Source: Zoogloea dura (GTDB taxonomy: Bacteria; Pseudomonadota; Gammaproteobacteria; Burkholderiales; Rhodocyclaceae). From it: a stretch of DNA of 35,103 nucleotides. The translations under genes were made by a program, and so were the position numbers. Under the pieces are notes generated by a model. It saw only the letters and a list, made by a program, of their open reading frames with translations, was not told where the DNA came from and searched no databases. This document shows positions 1-35,103 of this stretch, piece by piece. The stretch covers positions 1-35,103 of the forward strand of contig NZ_JABBGA010000035.1 in assembly GCF_012927165.1 (NCBI RefSeq), written 5' to 3'. Numbering within the stretch: position 1 is the stretch's first letter; every line of letters begins with the position of its first letter.

Positions 1-2351
1 CACACCCGGTCGCCGATGGAGGCCTTCTGGTACAGGCCCGCATCCACGCTCAGGTCGCTTTCGCCCGCGCTCAGGTTGACCACCCCGGTCTTGCCCGTCA
101 GGGGGTCGAAGTCGCTGTCGGTCGCATCATTGCCACCCAGGTCCTTGCCGCTCAGGAAGTAGCCGGTCGGCGCCACCACCTGGGCCGAGTAGTCGCCCGG
201 TGCCAGGTTGTTGAACAGGTAGCTGCCATCCGCCCCGGTGGTGGTGGTACCGACCACATTGCCGCTGGCGTCGATCAGCTTGACGGTCACCCCGGCCAGA
301 CCGGCTTCACCAGCGTCCTGCACGCCGTTGGCGTTCTTGTCCAGCCACACCTTGTCGCCGAGGGCGGCGGTGCGCTCGTCCACGAAGTCGTTGCCGGTGC
401 TGGTGCCCCCTGCCGGCACGGTCACGGCGATCACGTTGGGATTGCCGCCGTCCTTGTCGGAGACGTCGAGGTAGCCCGGCTTGTTGGTTTCCTCCACCGT
501 GTAGTTACCGGCAGGGACGTTATTGAAGCTGTAGTTGCCGCTGGTATCGGTCGTGGTGCTGGCCACGATGTTCCCGGCGCTGTCCTTCAGCACCACGGTC
601 ACGCCGGCGATCGGCGCGTCGCCCGTGTTGTTGTTGTCCAGGTCCTCGCGCACGGTGCCGGTGATGGCGCCGGGCGTGGCGACGATGCCCGCATCCCAGC
701 TGCGATCGGATTCGCCGGACTGCAGGACGGTCTGGATCGTCCTGCCGGTGGCCGCGTCGGCATCGCTGTCGCTGGCGTCGGTGGCCGCCGCTGCGTCCCG
801 GGTGGTGAAGGCATAGCCGGCCGGCAGCGTGGCCTTGTCGAACTGGACGCTGTAGGTGCCGGGCTTCAGCCCGCTGAACAGGTAGTTGCCCGCAGCATCG
901 GTGTTCTGGCTGCTCACCACGTTGCCCGCGGCATCCAGCAGGGACACCCTGACGCCCTGCACGCCGGCTTCAGCCGCATCCTGCACGCCATTGGCGTTGC
1001 TGTCGTACCAGACCTTGTCGCCCAACTCGGCCAGCTTGTAGAGGCCGGCATCCACGTCCGGGTTGTTCTGCCCTGACACCAGGCTGACCAGCCCGCTCTG
1101 CCCCGCCGCGTTGATGTCACTGTCGATGGCCTCAACGCCCCCCAGGTCCTGGCCGCTGATTTCATAGCCCGCCGGCTTGACCACGGCCACCGAGTAGGTG
1201 CCGGGCGTCACGCTGAAGCTGTACTGGCCATCCGCCCCCGTGGTGGTGCTCTGCACCACCGCGCCCGTGGCATCCCGCAGCTGCACCACGACATTGGCAA
1301 TGCCCGCCTCGCCCGCGTCCTGCACGCCGTTGGCGTTGGTGTCCTCCCACACCCGGTCTCCGAGAATGGCCGGGCGCTCGTCCACGAAGTTGTTGCCGGT
1401 ACTGGTGGCGCCGGAAACCACACTCACCGCAATCACGTTGAGATCGCCGCCATCCTTGTCGGAGACGTCCAGGTAGGTCGGCTTGTTGGTCTCCACCACC
1501 GTGTAGCTACCCGGGGGCAGGCCGTTGAAGACGTAGTTGCCGCTGCCGTCTGTAGTGGTGGTGGCCACCACCTTGCCGCTGCTGTCCAGCAGGGTGACGG
1601 TCACGCCTGGGATCGGCGTGTCGCCGATGTCATCGTTATTGCTGTCTTCCAGCACGGTGCCGGATATGGCGCCCGGAACGGGCACGGCGAAGGTGATGGT
1701 ATTCGGTGTGACGTCGAGGTCGGCGCCACCACAGCCAGCGGTCCCGCCGTCGTCACGCACCTGGAAGGTGAAGGACTGGGCCCCGCCGGCATCGACCGGT
1801 GCCAGGTAACTCAGCTTGCCGGCAGCGATATCGGACGCCAGGATCTCCTGCCCGGCCACCACGGCGACACCATCCAGGCGCAGCACGCCGCTGGCCGGCA
1901 CCGAATCGATCACCACCGACTTGAAGCCGTTGCCCTCCACCGCATCGACAAAGCCGAAGTCGCCGAGCCCGAGTACGTAGACATCGCCGTTGGCCAGCGC
2001 CACCCCCTCGTCCGCGCCGGTGGGGGCGTCATTGACCGGCGTAACCTGGACCGTCAGGTCGAGGATGAAGCCGCTGCCCGTACTGTCGGTACCCAGCACG
2101 CTCACTTCCAGTTGGCCGTTGAAGTTGGGCAGCGAGCTCATGTCCAGGCTCAGGGTGTCCTTGTCGACGGCGGTGAAATAGCCGGCCGTGACCTCCTGGT
2201 ACACCCCATCCACCTTTACATACAGCCTGATCTTCTCGGGATTGATCGCCGAATAGTTTGAATCCGCCAGCTTGAGCAGGTCGAACAACTCAAAAGTCTT
2301 GCTGGTGTCTTCACAAAGGGAAATGCTTGTTGCGTAACGCGGCAGTGCCAT
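1..2351 (-). CDS. Giant SdrD-B-like repeat surface protein, partial (C-terminus beyond left edge)
   Basis: One uninterrupted frame runs from an ATG at 2351 (GGAG about 7 nt upstream) to the window edge, giving about 783 residues. There is no N-terminal signal peptide, as expected for a type I secretion substrate whose signal is C-terminal. Residues about 1-110 are unassigned and end in a VNDAPT segment typical of cadherin/VCBS-like adhesins; about 115-225 form one further adhesin-like beta domain. From about 226 onward come successive SdrD-B-like (Cna-B-type) domains starting near 226, 329, 440, 557, 661 and 778. They share D-x-N-x-N-G (calcium-loop-like) openings, a GxVWxDxNANGVQDAGEAG-type signature and a YxFxxLxPGxYxV close. 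The role is probably a secreted or cell-surface adhesin exported by the divergent operon at 3053-8351. That partnership is inferred from position; no RTX repeats or secretion signal are visible because the C-terminus is missing. Confidence 0.9.
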   Translation of the reverse strand, partial: MALPRYATSISLCEDTSKTFELFDLLKLADSNYSAINPEKIRLYVKVDGVYQEVTAGYFTAVDKDTLSLDMSSLPNFNGQLEVSVLGTDSTGSGFILDLTVQVTPVNDAPTGADEGVALANGDVYVLGLGDFGFVDAVEGNGFKSVVIDSVPASGVLRLDGVAVVAGQEILASDIAAGKLSYLAPVDAGGAQSFTFQVRDDGGTAGCGGADLDVTPNTITFAVPVPGAISGTVLEDSNNDDIGDTPIPGVTVTLLDSSGKVVATTTTDGSGNYVFNGLPPGSYTVVETNKPTYLDVSDKDGGDLNVIAVSVVSGATSTGNNFVDERPAILGDRVWEDTNANGVQDAGEAGIANVVVQLRDATGAVVQSTTTGADGQYSFSVTPGTYSVAVVKPAGYEISGQDLGGVEAIDSDINAAGQSGLVSLVSGQNNPDVDAGLYKLAELGDKVWYDSNANGVQDAAEAGVQGVRVSLLDAAGNVVSSQNTDAAGNYLFSGLKPGTYSVQFDKATLPAGYAFTTRDAAAATDASDSDADAATGRTIQTVLQSGESDRSWDAGIVATPGAITGTVREDLDNNNTGDAPIAGVTVVLKDSAGNIVASTTTDTSGNYSFNNVPAGNYTVEETNKPGYLDVSDKDGGNPNVIAVTVPAGGTSTGNDFVDERTAALGDKVWLDKNANGVQDAGEAGLAGVTVKLIDASGNVVGTTTTGADGSYLFNNLAPGDYSAQVVAPTGYFLSGKDLGGNDATDSDFDPLTGKTGVVNLSAGESDLSVDAGLYQKASIGDRV

Positions 2352-3052
2352 GACCAATCTCCATCGCTGTGTTTTTCGTTTCGACCCCGAGATAAAGAGG
2401 GAGCGAGCCGTGAAATCAGGGATGAAAAGGCAATTAGCGCGCCAACGACCCGCATAAATTTGTCAAAAACGATATTTTCAAATCACCTCAATTACTTATA
2501 CAAAAAGAAAAGCTTATTAACAAATATTAAAAACGGCACATCAAACCTGCTGTAAGAAATCCCGACACCCATATATGAAAAATCAGGTAAATCCGCGGCA
2601 ACACATCCTCTTCTTTCTCATAAAAAACAGCAAAAATCAAAACCAAAGCACTGTTTTAAATGAAATTTTTAAAAACAAAACACCCACAAAAAAACAAGCC
2701 TCCCCTTCCACCCTCTACCCAGAAATCACTCAAACCCCCATAAAATTCTTCGACAGGCATTTATTCACAACACCACCTCACCATGCGACATTTCCTTTAA
2801 AACCAAAAACCACAAAAAAATACTAATCACCCAACCAAAAGAAACAAAATGTTGTTAAAAATAAGACACGATTTTCAACCCCACCCTCTTTCCCCATAAA
2901 AAGTCACATAAAAATTGAAAACAAAACCCCATTAAAAGAGTTCGTGATTTTTTGACATTTTTCCACCTCCGCTCCTGTGGCACCATCGGCAGCCTGAAAA
3001 CAGGGAAACCGGATTACGGCTTCCAGCGAATCGCCCTACCGAGTTCATTCCC
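2352..3052. other. Long AT-rich, G-depleted divergent intergenic region
   Basis: This 701-bp gap separates the adhesin gene from the secretion operon. The core from about 2460 to 2945 is AT-rich and full of A-tracts, unlike the GC-rich flanks. By hand count 2641-2940 holds about 19 G against 87 C, so the plus strand is mostly A and C. It must carry both divergent promoters. I found no convincing -35/-10 pair for either gene: TTGACA at 2952-2957 lacks a -10 partner, and TTGAAA (minus, 2481-2476) has only a weak -10 17 nt on. The short open frame inside (2575-2826) is low-complexity and looks non-coding. Nucleoid-protein silencing or a long unstructured leader are plausible inferences. Confidence 0.7.
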
Positions 3053-24120: not shown

Positions 24121-24900
24121 TCAGTTCACCATCTCCCACGCCAGCTTGGCGATCAGTACCGAGACCACCACCAGGAAGGCCTGCCGCACAAAGGCCGTGC
24201 CGCGGCGCAGAGCCAGCCAGGTGCCGACGTGGGCGCCTGCCAGATTGCAGGCTGCCATCACCAGGCCCACGGTCCACAGCAAGGGGCCGTGACTGGCAAA
24301 GAAGCCGATGGCCGACAGGTTGGTGGCCACATTGATCAGCTTGGCGCTGGCCGAGGCACGCAGGAAGTCCATGCCGAAAAGGCGCACGAAACCGAAGATC
24401 AGGAAGCTGCCCGTCCCGGGCCCGAAGAAGCCGTCGTAGAACCCGATGACCGCACCGAAGGCCACCGCGCGCCAGCGATCGGCAGCGGTGAGCTCACGCG
24501 TTTCCGCATGCCCGAAATCCTTGCGGCGGAAGGTGTAGATGGCGACCGCCAGCATCAGCACCAGCACCAGCGGGCGCATTGCCTCGCGGGGCAGCCAGGC
24601 GACCACGGCAGCCCCCACCCAGGCGCCGGCCAACGCAGCCAGCGCTGCCGGCACCACCACCTTCCAGGGAATCTGCACGGAGCGGGCGTAGCGCCACAGG
24701 GCCGCGCTGGTGCCGGCGATGCTGGCCAGCTTGTTGGTGCCGAACAAGGTCGGAATGGCCACTTGAGGGTAGTGGCCGAGCAGCACGGGGATCTGGATCA
24801 GGCCGCCACCGCCGACCACGGCATCGACCATGCCGGCAAAGAAGGCGACAGCGCCAAGAAAAATGAAATCGAGAGGCATGGCAAGCAGACTGGAAGACAT
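24121..24900 (-). CDS. TauE/SafE-family (TSUP) membrane exporter
   Basis: A 259-residue integral membrane protein with about eight helices. It shows the family's two repeat signatures: the N-terminal GMVDAVVGGGGLIQIPVLL with GTNKLASIAGT, and the second-half GFYDGFFGPGTGSFLIF with AKLINVATNLSA. Members export sulfite, sulfoacetate or related organosulfur anions; the exact substrate is not set by sequence. The start at 24900 shares bases with the stop of the upstream regulator gene (TGATG), so the two are translationally coupled; a second ATG at 24879 is possible. The frame continues far upstream inside the regulator gene as shadow. It ends beside the 21-bp repeat array. Confidence 0.92.
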   Translation of the reverse strand: MSSSLLAMPLDFIFLGAVAFFAGMVDAVVGGGGLIQIPVLLGHYPQVAIPTLFGTNKLASIAGTSAALWRYARSVQIPWKVVVPAALAALAGAWVGAAVVAWLPREAMRPLVLVLMLAVAIYTFRRKDFGHAETRELTAADRWRAVAFGAVIGFYDGFFGPGTGSFLIFGFVRLFGMDFLRASASAKLINVATNLSAIGFFASHGPLLWTVGLVMAACNLAGAHVGTWLALRRGTAFVRQAFLVVVSVLIAKLAWEMVN

Positions 24901-25592
24901 CAAACCGGGCGCCGTGCGGCGACCGCCAGCGGCGCCCCCCAGGCCTGCCCGCAGACCAGGTCGAGAGGACCGGAGTCCTCGTCCACCAGATCGGCATATT
25001 GCCGCACCAGCTGGGCCAGGGAGTCCGTCTCCAGCTTGCAGGCGAGGCGGGCCCGGTGGACCTCCACCGTGCGGGGCGACACCGCCAGGGCACGGGCGAT
25101 CTCCTTGTTGGTGAGCCCCGCAACCACCAGGCCCAGCACCTCCCGCTCCCGCTCGGAGAGACGGGTATAGAGGCTGCGGGCATGGCGGGAGCGTTGCTGC
25201 CGCTGGCGCTCGAGCACATGCTGGCCCACGGCCTTGCGCAGGATATCGGGGAGGCTGTCTTCCGCGGCGGACAGGGGCAGAAACTCGCGCGCCCCCGCCT
25301 TGAAGGCCCGCCGGCACAGATCGACAGTGGCATCGCGGGCCAGCACGATCACGGGCATATCCACGCCCAACGGGCCCAGCCGGTCCAGCAGTGCCAGTTC
25401 GGGACCGGAACCGGCAACCTCTACGAGGAGGGCGCCGGTGGCATCGGGGTCGAGTGCGGACAGAAAGCCGTCGGCATCACGCCACGCCTGGAAACCGAAG
25501 CTCAGGCCACTTGCCAGAAGGACGACGTTCCCGCAGGCGGCGGCGTCCCGTGTGACGAGATGGATGCAGGGCATGGGCACGGAACAAATCAT
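24900..25592 (-). CDS. LuxR/FixJ-type regulator with degenerate receiver domain
   Basis: A 230-residue DNA-binding protein. The C-terminal LuxR helix-turn-helix (about 145-200) has LSEREREVLGLVVAGLTNKE and VSPRTVEVHRARL. The N-terminal 120 residues have the receiver layout but lack key residues: no acidic pair after beta-1, glutamate (E58) where the phosphoacceptor aspartate is expected, alanine in place of the beta-4 Thr/Ser, and no conserved lysine near FLPLSA. It is probably phosphorylation-independent. The ATG at 25592 with AAGGGA 7 nt upstream is preferred over an earlier frame opening. It overlaps the TauE-like gene by one base and probably controls it. No partner kinase is nearby. Confidence 0.88.
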   Translation of the reverse strand: MICSVPMPCIHLVTRDAAACGNVVLLASGLSFGFQAWRDADGFLSALDPDATGALLVEVAGSGPELALLDRLGPLGVDMPVIVLARDATVDLCRRAFKAGAREFLPLSAAEDSLPDILRKAVGQHVLERQRQQRSRHARSLYTRLSEREREVLGLVVAGLTNKEIARALAVSPRTVEVHRARLACKLETDSLAQLVRQYADLVDEDSGPLDLVCGQAWGAPLAVAARRPV

Positions 25593-25749: not shown

Positions 25750-27057
25750 TCAGGCCGTTGCCTCTGCAGGCACGGCTCCATCTGCCACGGGCAGCGCTTC
25801 GTCGACATCGTCCAGTCTCGGATCGACAGGGTCAATGGCGTTTTCCCACTTGGCCACGGCAGTGGTGGCGATGGCGTTGCCGAGCACGTTGGTGGCGGTG
25901 CGGCCCATGTCCAGGAAGTGGTCGATGCCCATGATCAGCAGCAGACCGGCCTCCGGCAGGTGGAACATGGGCAGCACGGCCGCCACCACCACCAGGGACG
26001 AACGGGGTACGCCGGCCACGCCCTTGCTCGAGATCATCAGCACCAGCAGCATGGTGACCTGCTCGCCGAGGGACATGGGGATGCCATAGGCCTGGGCCAC
26101 GAACAGGGCCGCAAAGCCGGTGTAGAGCATCGAGCCATCCAGGTTGAAGGAGTAGCCGAGGGGCAGCACGAAGCCGGTGACGCGGTTCTGCACGCCGAAC
26201 TTCTCGAGCTGCTCCATCAGCTTGGGGTAGGCCGACTCGCTGCTGGCGGTGGAGAAGCCGAGCAGCATGGGGCTGCGCACCAGCTTGATGAGGCGGAACA
26301 CCTCCTTGCCCAGCACCATGTAGCCGGCGCCGATGAGCACCACCCACAGCACGAGGAGCGCCAGGTAGAAGCTGGCCAGCAGCTTGCCGAACACCGCCAG
26401 CATGCCGACGCCCTGGGTCGTCACCACCGCGGCAACGGCCGCGAAGACACCCAGCGGGGCAAAGCGCATCACGTAGTCGGTGACCTTGAGCATCACATGG
26501 ACGACTTCATCCATGGTCTGCACCAGGCTGCGGGCGGCCTGGCTGTGCAGGTTGCCGAGGGCCAGGCCGAAGAACACCGAGAACACCAGGATCTGCAGCA
26601 CCGAGTTACCCGCCATCGCCTCGACGATGCTCTTCGGGAAGACCTGGGTGATGAAGTCCTTCAGGTTGAGGGCCCCGGTCTTCAGGTTGGTGGCGGTGCC
26701 GGCTTCCGGCAGCGGCATGTTCAGCGCGTGGCCCGGCTGCAGCAGGTTGGCAAAGACCAGCCCGATCAGCAGTGAGGCGAGCGAGGCCGCAATGAACCAG
26801 CCCAGGGCCTTGGTGCCGATGCGCCCGACAGTCTTGGAGTCGCCGATGTTGGCGAGGCCGGACACCAGGGTGGCGAAGACCAGCGGCGCGATGATCATCT
26901 TGATCAGGCGCAGGAAGATGTCGGTGACGATGCCGAAGTAGCCGGCGATCTCCTTGGCCGCCTCGGGCGTCGGCGCGGCCTGGTTGCAGGCGTAGCCCAC
27001 GATGATGCCGAGGACCAGCGCGACAAGGATCAGCAGGGAGGATTTGTTGGCTTTCAT
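25750..27057 (-). CDS. Dicarboxylate/amino-acid:cation symporter (DAACS family)
   Basis: A 435-residue inner-membrane symporter of the glutamate/C4-dicarboxylate family. It has the re-entrant-loop serine motif STASSESAYPK, the NLDGS segment, the SSKGVAGVPRSS hairpin and the late substrate motif DHFLDMGRTATNVLGN. The DMGRT-NV arrangement is closer to glutamate/aspartate carriers (GltP-like) than to DctA, so acidic amino acids are the likely cargo, with C4-dicarboxylates as an alternative. It starts at 27057 with GGAG 8 nt upstream, 23 bp after the aspA stop, and is co-transcribed with aspA. Together they would import aspartate and deaminate it. A strong terminator follows. Confidence 0.93.
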   Translation of the reverse strand: MKANKSSLLILVALVLGIIVGYACNQAAPTPEAAKEIAGYFGIVTDIFLRLIKMIIAPLVFATLVSGLANIGDSKTVGRIGTKALGWFIAASLASLLIGLVFANLLQPGHALNMPLPEAGTATNLKTGALNLKDFITQVFPKSIVEAMAGNSVLQILVFSVFFGLALGNLHSQAARSLVQTMDEVVHVMLKVTDYVMRFAPLGVFAAVAAVVTTQGVGMLAVFGKLLASFYLALLVLWVVLIGAGYMVLGKEVFRLIKLVRSPMLLGFSTASSESAYPKLMEQLEKFGVQNRVTGFVLPLGYSFNLDGSMLYTGFAALFVAQAYGIPMSLGEQVTMLLVLMISSKGVAGVPRSSLVVVAAVLPMFHLPEAGLLLIMGIDHFLDMGRTATNVLGNAIATTAVAKWENAIDPVDPRLDDVDEALPVADGAVPAEATA

Positions 27058-27080: not shown

Positions 27081-28508
27081 TCAGGCGCCGGCCGGGCGTA
27101 CCGGCAGGGCACGCGGGCGGGTCAGCACTTCAGGACGCAGCACCTCGGCCAGGGCCTCGGCGGTCATCAGCCCGCGCTCCAGCACGATCTCGGCCACACC
27201 GCGGCCGCTGGCATGAGCTTCCGCCGCCACGTCGGTGGCATGGGCGTAGCCGATATAGGGGTTGAGGGCGGTGACGATGCCGATGGAGCGCTCGACGCTG
27301 GCCCGCAGCGCATCCCGGTTGGCGGTGATGCCATCCACACAGCGGTCGGCCAGCACCACGCAGCCCTTGGTCAGGTGCAGCACGCTCTTGAACAGGCTGT
27401 GGGCGATGATCGGCTCGAAGGCGTTGAGCTGGAGCTGGCCGGCCTCGGCGGCGAAGGTGACGGTCATGTCATTGCCGATGACCTCGAAGGCGATCTGGTT
27501 CACCACCTCGGGGATCACCGGGTTCACCTTGCCCGGCATGATCGACGAACCGGCCTGGCGCGGCGGCAGGTTGATCTCGCAAAAGCCGGCGCGGGGGCCG
27601 GAGGACAGCAGGCGCAGGTCGTTGCAGACCTTGGAGAGCTTGGCCGCCACCCGCTTGAGCACCCCGGAGAGCTGGATGAAGGAACCGCAGTCCTGGGTGG
27701 CCTCGATCAGGTTGGGGGCGGTGACGACCGGGATGCCGGTGATCTCGGCCAGGCGGCGGCACACCAGACCGGCGTAGTCGGGGTGGGCGTTGATGCCGGT
27801 GCCGATGGCGGTGGCGCCGAGGTTGATCTCGCGGATCAGCAGGGCGGCTTCCTTCAGGCGCTCTTCGTCCTCGCCGAGCATGGTGGCGTAGGTGGAGAAC
27901 TCCTGGCCGAGGGTCATCGGCACCGCGTCCTGCAGCTGGGTACGGCCCATCTTCAGCACGTCGGCAAACTCTTCGGCCTTGCGCTCGAAGGCGGCGCGCA
28001 GGTAGGCCATGGCGTCCACCAGGCGGAAGATGCCCACGTAGGTGGCCAGCTTCAAGGCGGTGGGATACACGTCATTGGTGGACTGGCTCATGTTGACGTG
28101 TTCGTTGGGGTGCAGGAAGCCGTATTCGCCCCGCGCGTGGCCCATGATCTCCAGGGCCCGGTTGGCGATGACTTCGTTGGCATTCATGTTGGTGGAGGTG
28201 CCGGCTCCACCCTGGATCACATCCACCACGAACTGATCGTGCAGGCGCCCCGCCACCAGCTCGTCACAGGCCGCGACGATGGCATTCATGCGCTCCCGCT
28301 CGAGCAGGCCCAGCTCGCAGTTGGCCTGGGCGGCGGCACGCTTGATCTGGGCCAGGGCGCGCACCAGGTCCGGGTAGACCGCGATGGTGATGCCGGTGAT
28401 CGGGAAGTTCTCCAGGGCGCGCAGGGTGTGCACGCCGTAGTAGGCAGTGGTCGGGACTTCCTTGTCGCCGAGCAGGTCGTGTTCCAGGCGGTGGGTGGCG
28501 GTGGTCAT
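27081..28508 (-). CDS. aspA: Aspartate ammonia-lyase (aspartase)
   Basis: This 475-residue enzyme of the fumarase/aspartase superfamily splits L-aspartate into fumarate and ammonium. Diagnostic segments are GGAGTSTNMNANEV, the NMSQSTNDVYPTALK block, and the catalytic loop GSSIMPGKVNP at 320-330, with a neighbouring serine pair supplying the base. Length matches AspA. The ATG at 28508 follows GGAG by 7 nt; the frame extends upstream but that stretch is leader. Upstream lie a sigma-54 promoter, an IHF site and paired activator-type sites, so the operon is probably induced by acidic amino acids through an enhancer-binding protein. The symporter gene follows in the same transcript. Confidence 0.97.
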   Translation of the reverse strand: MTTATHRLEHDLLGDKEVPTTAYYGVHTLRALENFPITGITIAVYPDLVRALAQIKRAAAQANCELGLLERERMNAIVAACDELVAGRLHDQFVVDVIQGGAGTSTNMNANEVIANRALEIMGHARGEYGFLHPNEHVNMSQSTNDVYPTALKLATYVGIFRLVDAMAYLRAAFERKAEEFADVLKMGRTQLQDAVPMTLGQEFSTYATMLGEDEERLKEAALLIREINLGATAIGTGINAHPDYAGLVCRRLAEITGIPVVTAPNLIEATQDCGSFIQLSGVLKRVAAKLSKVCNDLRLLSSGPRAGFCEINLPPRQAGSSIMPGKVNPVIPEVVNQIAFEVIGNDMTVTFAAEAGQLQLNAFEPIIAHSLFKSVLHLTKGCVVLADRCVDGITANRDALRASVERSIGIVTALNPYIGYAHATDVAAEAHASGRGVAEIVLERGLMTAEALAEVLRPEVLTRPRALPVRPAGA

Positions 28509-28574
28509 GTCTTGTCTCCTGATGTGTGATCCGGTGACCGGTGCGGCGAGGCGCCGGTCGGGCCCTCTTTCCAT

Positions 28575-28590
28575 TGCACAGGCCGTGCCA
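28575..28590 (-). promoter_or_regulatory. Sigma-54 (-24/-12) promoter of aspA operon
   Basis: On the minus strand the sequence TGGCACG-GCCT-GTGCA fits the consensus TGGCACG-N4-TTGCA, with GG and GC exactly 10 bp apart. Transcription would begin near 28564, giving a leader of about 56 nt before aspA. Confidence 0.85.
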
Positions 28591-28616
28591 CCCGGGAATA
28601 CGCCCAGGAGAAAACG

Positions 28617-28629
28617 CAAGACATTGATA
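28617..28629 (-). promoter_or_regulatory. IHF-binding site in aspA promoter
   Basis: TATCAATGTCTTG on the minus strand is a perfect match to the IHF consensus WATCAANNNNTTR. It is centred 34.5 bp upstream of the -24 GG, between promoter and activator sites, where IHF bends DNA for sigma-54 activators. Confidence 0.75.
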
Positions 28630-28664
28630 AACAAGGATTCGTAAAAACGGCGGTGCCCGATTCA

Positions 28665-28678
28665 TCCGGTTTTCCGAA
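28665..28678. promoter_or_regulatory. AauR-like activator site, promoter-proximal (aspA)
   Basis: TCCGG-TTTT-CCGAA differs by one base from TTCGG-N4-CCGAA, the site I recall for the Pseudomonas acidic-amino-acid activator AauR. It is centred 83 bp upstream of the -24 GG, a normal enhancer position. Confidence 0.7.
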
Positions 28679-28696
28679 CGAACAGGGCTCCGCCCG

Positions 28697-28710
28697 TCTG
28701 GAGATCCGAA
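28697..28710. promoter_or_regulatory. AauR-like activator site, distal (aspA)
   Basis: TCTGG-AGAT-CCGAA is a degenerate second copy exactly 32 bp (about three helical turns) upstream of the first. The same 32-bp offset occurs before gltI. Confidence 0.55.
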
Positions 28711-28862
28711 CGGCGCTCAGGCCTCCCCCCGGCCGTGCCTCTGGCAGGCCCCAACGGCGGCACCGCCTGTGGGGCGTCCTGCCGGGCCGGATCGAGCCCG
28801 GCGTCACAACCCAAGCCGAGCAGTGTTAACATCCTGTCATCGCCCTGCTCCGGACCGCCCCG

Positions 28863-29246
28863 ATGAACCTCGAGAAAGTCGTCTTCGGTTTTTTCATTGT
28901 CTTTGCCGCCACCCTCAACTTCGGTTTCTTCATCGGGGATCTCGACAATCCGGTCCATCACGACATCTACGAGCTGTTCGCGGCCATCGTGGTCAACCTG
29001 ATCGCCACGGTGCTCAAGTTCGGTGACCGCACCCAGATCGGCGCCATCCACCTGGCCACCAGCCTGGTGGCGGACCTGCAGTTGCTCGCCGCGGCCATGG
29101 TGTGGGGTTATGCCGTGCATGTGGCCGGCACCGGCCTGACCGCAGGCGCCATGTCCAGCATCGTGTCCCTGTCGGGCGGCGCCCTTTTCGCCAACGTGGT
29201 ATCGGTCGTCATCCTGATCGCCGAGACCATCATGCAGCGGCGCTGA
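28863..29246 (+). CDS. Small conserved membrane protein (DUF6394-like)
   Basis: A 127-residue protein with about four hydrophobic helices: VFGFFIVFAATLNFGFFIG, a second around YELFAAIVVNLIATVL, a third around LVADLQLLAAAMVWGYAV, and a fourth near the end (FANVVSVVILIAETI). It resembles a small uncharacterised family I recall as DUF6394; that assignment is from memory. The start at 28863 lacks a strong ribosome site. The downstream potassium-channel gene follows after 10 bp in the same direction, so a role as an accessory subunit or regulator of that channel is a reasonable inference. The 354-bp upstream gap is shared with the aspA enhancer region; a weak extended -10 (TGTTAACAT, 28824-28832) may serve this gene. 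Confidence 0.8.
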   Translation: MNLEKVVFGFFIVFAATLNFGFFIGDLDNPVHHDIYELFAAIVVNLIATVLKFGDRTQIGAIHLATSLVADLQLLAAAMVWGYAVHVAGTGLTAGAMSSIVSLSGGALFANVVSVVILIAETIMQRR

Positions 29247-34554: not shown

Positions 34555-34568
34555 GACGGAAATCCGGG
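34555..34568. promoter_or_regulatory. AauR-like activator site, distal (gltI)
   Basis: GACGG-AAAT-CCGGG keeps only the CGG-N4-CCG core. It is exactly 32 bp upstream of the better site at 34587, the same offset as before aspA. Confidence 0.5.
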
Positions 34569-34636: not shown

Positions 34637-34649
34637 AATCAATGACTTG
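34637..34649 (+). promoter_or_regulatory. IHF-binding site in gltI promoter
   Basis: AATCAATGACTTG is a perfect WATCAANNNNTTR match, centred 34.5 bp upstream of the -24 GG, the same distance and orientation as in the aspA promoter. Confidence 0.75.
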
Positions 34650-34675: not shown

Positions 34676-34691
34676 TGGCACGCGCTCTGCA
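34676..34691 (+). promoter_or_regulatory. Sigma-54 (-24/-12) promoter of gltI
   Basis: TGGCACG-CGCT-CTGCA matches the -24/-12 consensus with the required 10 bp between GG (34677-34678) and GC (34689-34690). Transcription would start near 34702, leaving a leader of about 52 nt. Confidence 0.88.
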
Positions 34692-34753: not shown

Positions 34754-35103
34754 ATGCGTACCCCGTTCAAGCTCGCAGCCACCTGTCTGATCCTCGCCGG
34801 TCTTGCCCAGCCGGCGCTGGCGCAGGAATCCCCCACCCTCAAGAAGATCAAGGACAGCGGCACCATCGCCCTGGGCCACCGCGAATCCTCCATCCCCTTC
34901 TCCTACTACGACGACAAGCAGCAGGTCGTCGGCTACTCCCAGGAGCTCATGCTCAAGGTCGTCGACGCCGTCAAGGCCGAGCTCAAGCTGCCCGCCCTGG
35001 CCGTCAAGCTCACCCCCGTCACCTCCCAGAACCGCATCCCCCTCGTGCAGAACGGCACCGTCGACATCGAGTGCGGCTCCACCACCCACAACGCCGAGCG
35101 GGC
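34754..35103 (+). CDS. gltI: Glutamate/aspartate ABC transporter substrate-binding protein GltI, partial (3' end beyond window)
   Basis: The first 116 codons of a periplasmic amino-acid-binding protein. The ATG at 34754 follows AGGAG by about 9 nt. A signal peptide ends at ALAQ, then LKKIKDSGTIALGHRESSIP, FSYYDDKQQVVGYSQEL and the C-terminal visible segment LVQNGTVDIECGSTTHNAER, a hallmark of the GltI/DEBP group that captures glutamate and aspartate for an ABC importer. The permease and ATPase genes are expected just outside the window. Expression should be sigma-54-dependent through the promoter at 34676-34691. Confidence 0.94.
   Translation, partial: MRTPFKLAATCLILAGLAQPALAQESPTLKKIKDSGTIALGHRESSIPFSYYDDKQQVVGYSQELMLKVVDAVKAELKLPALAVKLTPVTSQNRIPLVQNGTVDIECGSTTHNAER

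Follow-up and report, generated by a model that had tools for sequence, protein, structure and literature searches.

The stretch of DNA analysed here, hereafter the window, comprises 35,103 nucleotides of Zoogloea dura (contig NZ_JABBGA010000035.1 of RefSeq assembly GCF_012927165.1). It carries on the minus strand aspA, encoding aspartate ammonia-lyase, followed by genes for an SDF-family symporter and a TauE/SafE-family permease, and it ends within gltI (Table 1). AspA scores 721.8 bits against NCBIfam TIGR00839 (cutoff 681.2) with the frame scored from a start further upstream. The symporter scores best against DctA models, staying under the cutoffs of the NCBIfam DctA and GltP models alike, and its gene comes after aspA in relatives too. 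Between the symporter gene and tauE lies a gene for a LuxR/GerE-type regulator (window 24900-25574), likewise present in three congeners (G125, G134 and G137) and not seen at this place in the remaining congeners read.

Table 1 Genes and promoter elements of the aspA and gltI loci in the window.
Feature	Coordinates	Strand	Remarks
TauE/SafE-family permease gene	24121..24879	-	Pfam TauE 174 bits; order aspA-symporter-tauE conserved
SDF-family dicarboxylate/glutamate-type symporter gene	25750..27057	-	Pfam SDF 386 bits; 23 bp past aspA stop
aspA, aspartate ammonia-lyase, 475 aa	27081..28508	-	ATG at 28508; NCBIfam TIGR00839
aspA -24/-12 (sigma-54) element, putative, TGGCACGGCCTGTGC	28576..28590 (28590..28576 as read)	-	Sequence reading; 9/9 close AspA loci, 15/15 readable genus loci
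aspA IHF consensus TATCAATGTCTTG	28617..28629	-	0 mismatches to WATCAANNNNTTR; 40 bp before GG; between enhancer and promoter
aspA inner AauR-like site TTCGGAAAACCGGA	28665..28678	-	TTCGG-AAAA-CCGGA (9/10)
aspA outer AauR-like site TTCGGATCTCCAGA	28697..28710	-	TTCGG-ATCT-CCAGA (8/10); 32 bp from inner site
gltI outer weak CGG-N4-CCG site	34555..34568	+	GACGG-N4-CCGGG; 6/10 fixed bases of TTCGG-N4-CCGAA
gltI inner AauR-like site TCCGGAAATCCGAA	34587..34600	+	TCCGG-AAAT-CCGAA (9/10)
gltI IHF consensus AATCAATGACTTG	34637..34649	+	0 mismatches; 40 bp before GG
gltI -24/-12 element TGGCACGCGCTCTGC	34676..34690	+	
gltI, 5' part	34754..35103	+	Pfam SBP_bac_3; runs off contig end at 35103

A gap of 354 bp separates the aspA start at 28508 from a divergent gene at 28863 and holds, along aspA transcription, an outer site, an inner site, an IHF consensus and a -24/-12 element, the first three beginning 121, 89 and 40 bp before the GG of the last (counted from the start of each 14-mer or of the IHF match). 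The GG and GC at -24/-12 spacing, together with an rpoN gene in the genome, mark a putative sigma-54 promoter with a transcript start predicted at about 28564; no sigma-70-like promoter was found in 28450-28900. The initial annotation had described these elements, and all are found where it placed them, although its pair of CGG-N4-CCG sites holds for the inner one alone; the outer reads CGG-N4-CCA, a degeneracy that it had missed. It had also likened the arms to the AauR motif of Pseudomonas, rightly in view of the TTCGG-N4-CCGAA printed in the available part of PMC7962211, and the two near-matches upstream of the -24/-12 element are candidate AauR sites. The damaged right arm of the outer site counts against control by AauR; the CCAGA arm recurs in 6 of the 15 readable genus loci, that of Z. 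dura included.

In the gltI promoter the corresponding distances are 122, 90 and 40 bp, each within 1 bp of its counterpart at aspA, an agreement of spacing that had been noted before. The outer gltI site is weak in Z. dura; at the matching offset, a congener (G036) has an 8/10 site.

An AspA search gave matches in 83 of 121 family genomes, and the scan covered the 30 best loci. Each of the nine close loci (identity at least 84%) carries a -24/-12 element with one or two AauR-like sites; among the 21 distant ones (identity at most 78%), a single locus (G041) gave a weak match under a loose rule. A search of 23 genomes of the genus yielded aspA in 16 (E 1e-200 or better), and 15 of these offer enough upstream sequence, G129 being left out because its contig begins too near aspA. 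The module (TGGCA-N8-GC with at least 7/10 site bases) is present in 15/15, with the inner site alone seen in G133. The IHF match is poorly conserved in G094, G132 and G124 (3 mismatches), which counts against the AauR model.

The genome encodes an AauR-type enhancer-binding protein (EBP), as had been proposed should be sought: a 445-residue protein (C20:61296-62630) with Response_reg, Sigma54_activat and HTH_8 matches, that is, a receiver, a sigma-54 AAA+ domain and a Fis-type HTH. Directly before its gene lies that of an AauS-type kinase of 613 residues with Cache, HisKA and HATPase matches, those to Cache and HisKA scoring below the Pfam cutoff. At E 1e-120 or better, with 68 of 134 candidates scored, AauR is the sole AauR/DctD-group protein seen in this genome and no DctD-type EBP was seen; further matches at this level occur in 8 of 24 other genomes. 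The expected neighbourhood with glt genes also exists, in that the end of contig C20 reads GltL C-terminus, marC, aauS and aauR in order. A 3-kb contig (C64) carries the gltI 3' end, a porin gene, an asparaginase gene and gltJ; porin, asparaginase and MarC were named by eye. Contig breaks separate both contigs from the window gltI, with which they may form one cluster. Porin-like and asparaginase-like genes between gltI and gltJ (G094: and aauS) were observed at L327 (G000:C64) 3-3003 and L321 13111-15694, and their place in the gltI cluster fits amide as well as acidic amino acid use.

Across the family, AauR is found at E 1e-195 or better in 25 of 121 genomes (with scoring of 14 candidates in almost all genomes listed), and in 20 of these 25 the module precedes aspA, gltI or the symporter gene. 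It was not found where looked for in G024, G074, G079, G089 (contig cut) and G105, which counts against the model. GltI was sought in 25 genomes and matched in 22; among 30 gltI-type loci scanned, paralogs included, ten have the promoter, all from AauR-bearing genomes, and none of the five scanned loci from AauR-less genomes has it. The gltI of G026 also has the promoter. The regulator genes themselves lie in an aspA-symporter-tauE-aauS-aauR cluster in seven genomes (G020, G030, G042, G062, G081, G123 and G135) and in a gltIJKL-aspA-aauS-aauR cluster in G031 and G106.

The sites, their geometry and conservation, the presence and uniqueness of the regulator, its co-occurrence with the module and the gene clustering are observed features, and on this sequence evidence it is highly probable that the aspA-symporter(-tauE) promoter is sigma-54-dependent and AauR-activated, and that one AauSR regulon joins glutamate/aspartate uptake to aspartase. 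Binding, phosphorylation, ligand and induction we infer as follows. The membrane kinase AauS would sense external acidic amino acids through its Cache domain and phosphorylate AauR, oligomers of which would occupy the tandem pair of TTCGG-N4-CCGAA-like sites, spaced by 32 bp; IHF would bend the DNA such that AauR contacts RNA polymerase-sigma-54 at -24/-12 and opens the promoter using ATP. The same AauSR, encoded beside glt transporter genes, would act on gltI, and we propose that uptake and aspartase are thereby induced together. The acidic-amino-acid regulon predicted by the initial annotation thus gains support from the AauR-type EBP, its glt adjacency, the genome scan described below and rpoN; what that annotation overlooked is a second, aspA-linked AauSR in relatives. 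The outcome is a testable candidate acidic-amino-acid regulon outside Pseudomonas, with uptake and aspartase under one sensor.

A system of this kind is already known from Pseudomonas. AauSR/aatJQMP (gltIJKL; P. putida, P. aeruginosa and P. syringae) likewise combines a response regulator-EBP, an adjacent kinase and transporter, TTCGG-N4-CCGAA and a -24/-12 element. Among the best 80 loci, P. inefficax, P. frederiksbergensis and P. viridiflava show gltIJKL-aauS-aauR with AauR 59-61% identical, and their gltI (aatJ) promoters have TGGCACG-N4-ATGC, preceded at 122-123 and 91-92 bp by two sites with an offset of 31-32 bp. Over the 50 C-terminal columns compared, AauR of Z. dura is 46-48% identical to Pseudomonas AauR, and in view of this low value the identity of the motif is drawn from the sites. 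The available part of PMC7962211 places two motifs 233-278 bp upstream of aatJ in PAO1, a span of 46 bp that fits the 32-bp offset; for P. putida it also describes a putative AauR site before gltP, and lists gltP, ppsA, ansB and dsbC as further AauR targets there. The available part of PMC7386598 names hrpRS as an AauR target in P. syringae and includes AauR binding tests. aspA is absent among the AauR targets named in these parts of the two papers, the available parts of PMC8281045 and PMC11722255 hold nothing bearing on aspA, and no report of aspA under AauR was found in the literature searched (titles and beginnings of abstracts, for part of the matches), where the regulator hand-over discussed below did not appear either. 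Unlike in the Pseudomonas system, the operon controlled here would start with aspA, and the betaproteobacterial relatives have two AauR clades; new are the proposed targeting of an aspartase operon, the split of the regulator into two clades and the merger proposed below.

The DctBD/dctA and TRAP dicarboxylate systems also consist of a kinase, an EBP, tandem sites, IHF and sigma-54, and they share with the aspA promoter both this architecture and similar CGG-N4-CCG cores (L205 and L323). It is conceivable, if unlikely, that the aspA promoter is sigma-54-dependent and driven by another EBP such as a DctD-type dicarboxylate regulator: the genome has 26 strong matches to sigma-54 activators (and 3 weak ones), and the best scores of the symporter are to DctA models. 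In Cupriavidus, moreover, a dctA-like gene next to that of a DctD-type EBP has TTCGG-N4-CCGAA sites in similar geometry upstream. The motif thus also occurs outside AauR systems, which counts against our model. Set against this alternative are the single AauR/DctD-group match in the genome at the threshold and scope given above, the co-occurrence of the module with AauR and the AauSR genes within the aspA cluster of relatives. When the 26 EBPs are compared with the AauR/DctD set, AauR alone is close, the next seven listed being only 36-46% identical to their best row. Unlike a DctD-type regulator, the AauR of Z. dura groups with aat-linked Pseudomonas AauR in a 29-row clade (support 96/98, first inner fork drawn open). 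The rows taken as DctD-type, assigned by identity or by a neighbouring dctA-like gene and 47-58% identical over the alignment, fall outside it. Activation by AauR is the preferred reading. Genes beside DctD-type regulators have tandem sites 31 bp apart (L323 1183 upstream; L205 6538 upstream), reading TGCGG-N4-CCGGA in G020, and TTCGG-N4-CCGAA and TCCGG-N4-CCGGA in Cupriavidus; one or two bases in the arms may be all that distinguishes AauR sites from DctD sites.

AauR itself falls into an asp-linked clade (FastTree 0.973; IQ-TREE 100/96, 10 rows) and a glt-linked clade (FastTree 1.0; IQ-TREE 99/99); the IQ-TREE alignment included two run-on proteins, which were dropped with three outgroup rows for later trees. 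As read from the sequences, this split tracks which promoter bears the candidate sites. All ten genomes examined with the glt type only have the gltI promoter (G000, that is Z. dura, G026, G031, G036, G044, G053, G086, G090, G094 and G106; G079 is outside this count), compared with none of five examined with the asp type only (G020, G030, G042, G085 and G098). Conversely, of 14 asp-type genomes, 12 carry the module before aspA or the symporter gene (none in G105; contig cut in G089), and the aspA module is absent from all seven glt-only genomes examined outside the genus. In G031, G090 and G106, however, aspA comes immediately after gltIJKL and may be served by the same promoter. G062 has both AauR types and both promoters, and the exceptions are Z. 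dura and G094, each with a single glt-type AauR and both promoters. G062 has its two AauR types in tail-to-tail arrangement (L106 / L113), and each is accompanied by a kinase and a gene cluster of its own.

The surroundings of aspA, read in 12 genus genomes (Z. dura, G094 and ten others), contain an asp-type aauS-aauR pair behind tauE in two (G123 and G135). In eight of the 12 the pair is not in the stretch read, as checked by tblastn on the DNA; in the remaining two, G094 and G134, contig ends cut the stretch. On a genome-wide scale, the absence of asp-type AauR is shown for Z. dura, G094 and G036 alone, the last being without this aspA. The two loci that keep the pair have their sites 110/78 bp from -24, and in the remaining 13 readable genus loci they lie at 119-122 and 87-90 bp (G133 inner only). 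This longer geometry places the sites about one helical turn further out, as in the three genus gltI promoters that were read. IHF mostly lies 39-42 bp before the GG in the longer-geometry loci, compared with 29 bp in G123; the two distance classes are blurred by G133, where a perfect match lies at 42 bp, and by G135, where the best one (2 mismatches) lies at 46 bp. Outside the genus, G020, G030 and G081 pair asp-type AauR with the longer geometry, which is therefore not strictly tied to regulator type.

From these loci we infer that the AauSR pair was ancestral and then lost, rather than gained repeatedly, and the best reading of the sequences is that the regulon would have formed when the aspA operon lost its own regulator. 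In detail we offer the following history tentatively, as one that falls somewhat short of probable: aspA-symporter-tauE ancestrally had its own AauSR, which was lost in the branch of Z. dura, the glt-type AauSR took over the promoter, the sites shifted by about one helical turn, and the outer site became the conserved TTCGG-N4-CCAGA in part of the branch. The loss could instead have left a relic, with the remaining glt-type AauR inactive on aspA; the asp-type pair is indeed absent from Z. dura and present behind tauE in G123 and G135, and the outer site is degenerate. We consider this very unlikely, as the module stands in 15/15 readable genus loci, including eight genomes without aauSR behind tauE (G133 with the inner site only), the CCAGA arm is itself shared by 6/15, and the inner site and IHF agree with the geometry of the gltI promoter. 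The natural series of genomes with their own regulator kept, with it lost and with both regulators would be a model for a target promoter changing hands between paralogous two-component systems.

IHF matches were sought in 27 promoters, and spacing was compared across the 22 with a usable one. Left out were G094 aspA, G044 gltI, G109 symporter and G026 gltI (at least 3 mismatches), as well as P. inefficax gltI, where the best match, with 2 mismatches, is at 55 bp and contradicts the pattern. In the 22, the distance from IHF to the GG is 28-31 or 39-40 bp and that from the outer site to IHF 79-83 or 89-92 bp, as if whole helical turns had been gained or lost; the IHF of the G062 gltI row is a two-mismatch minus-strand match. 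Helical-phase p-values are too small, because related promoters were treated as independent. The genus loci offer material on whole-helical-turn moves of enhancer, IHF site and promoter. Among the same 27, IHF matches are perfect in 7 (0.01 expected from Markov shuffles) and have one mismatch in 6 (0.9 expected).

Chance was further gauged by pattern scans. Scanned on both strands, the window and 56 fetched loci, which include the real promoters, gave 3562 stretches of 540 bp, 25 of them with a composite. In the 5.83-Mb genome of Z. dura, TCGG-N4-CCG...TGGCAC-N6-TGC matches once, at aspA (1 for the reversed-pattern control), and the CCGG composite three times (control 1), at gltI and within two predicted genes (C3 and C45), which were set aside; the extragenic matches of the scan that had been suggested are thus aspA and gltI only. 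Shorter patterns were discarded: TCCGG-N4-CCGAA alone has 31 matches genome-wide against 30 for its control and is uninformative by itself, and TTCGG-N4-CCG has 392, below the 528 of its control. A tally for all 25 genomes with AauR gave 12 matches to the TCGG pattern (control 9) and 34 to the CCGG pattern (control 18), which counts against the model; as the composites, which miss sites with A or G before CGG, are noisy over 121 genomes, they were used for the Z. dura genome only and position-anchored scans were relied on. CGG-N4-CCG is frequent in this GC-rich genome, yet the elements are conserved together in relatives with their spacing unchanged, and this, along with the excess of IHF matches over shuffles, makes a chance resemblance, with aspA expressed from another promoter, extremely improbable.

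The start of gltI occurs twice in the genome: window 34805-35103 is identical over 299 bp to C20 1-299, both copies lying at contig ends, and the contigs of G036 and G094 likewise break within two gltI copies. A promoter shared by the second copy (C20:3-368) was considered and rejected, none being found upstream of it. As a side reading, the pair would be a recent or gene-converted duplication with the AauR-type promoter on one copy only. In G053, three gltI-type binding-protein genes stand within one glt-aspA-aauSR cluster (L102 9991-16297).
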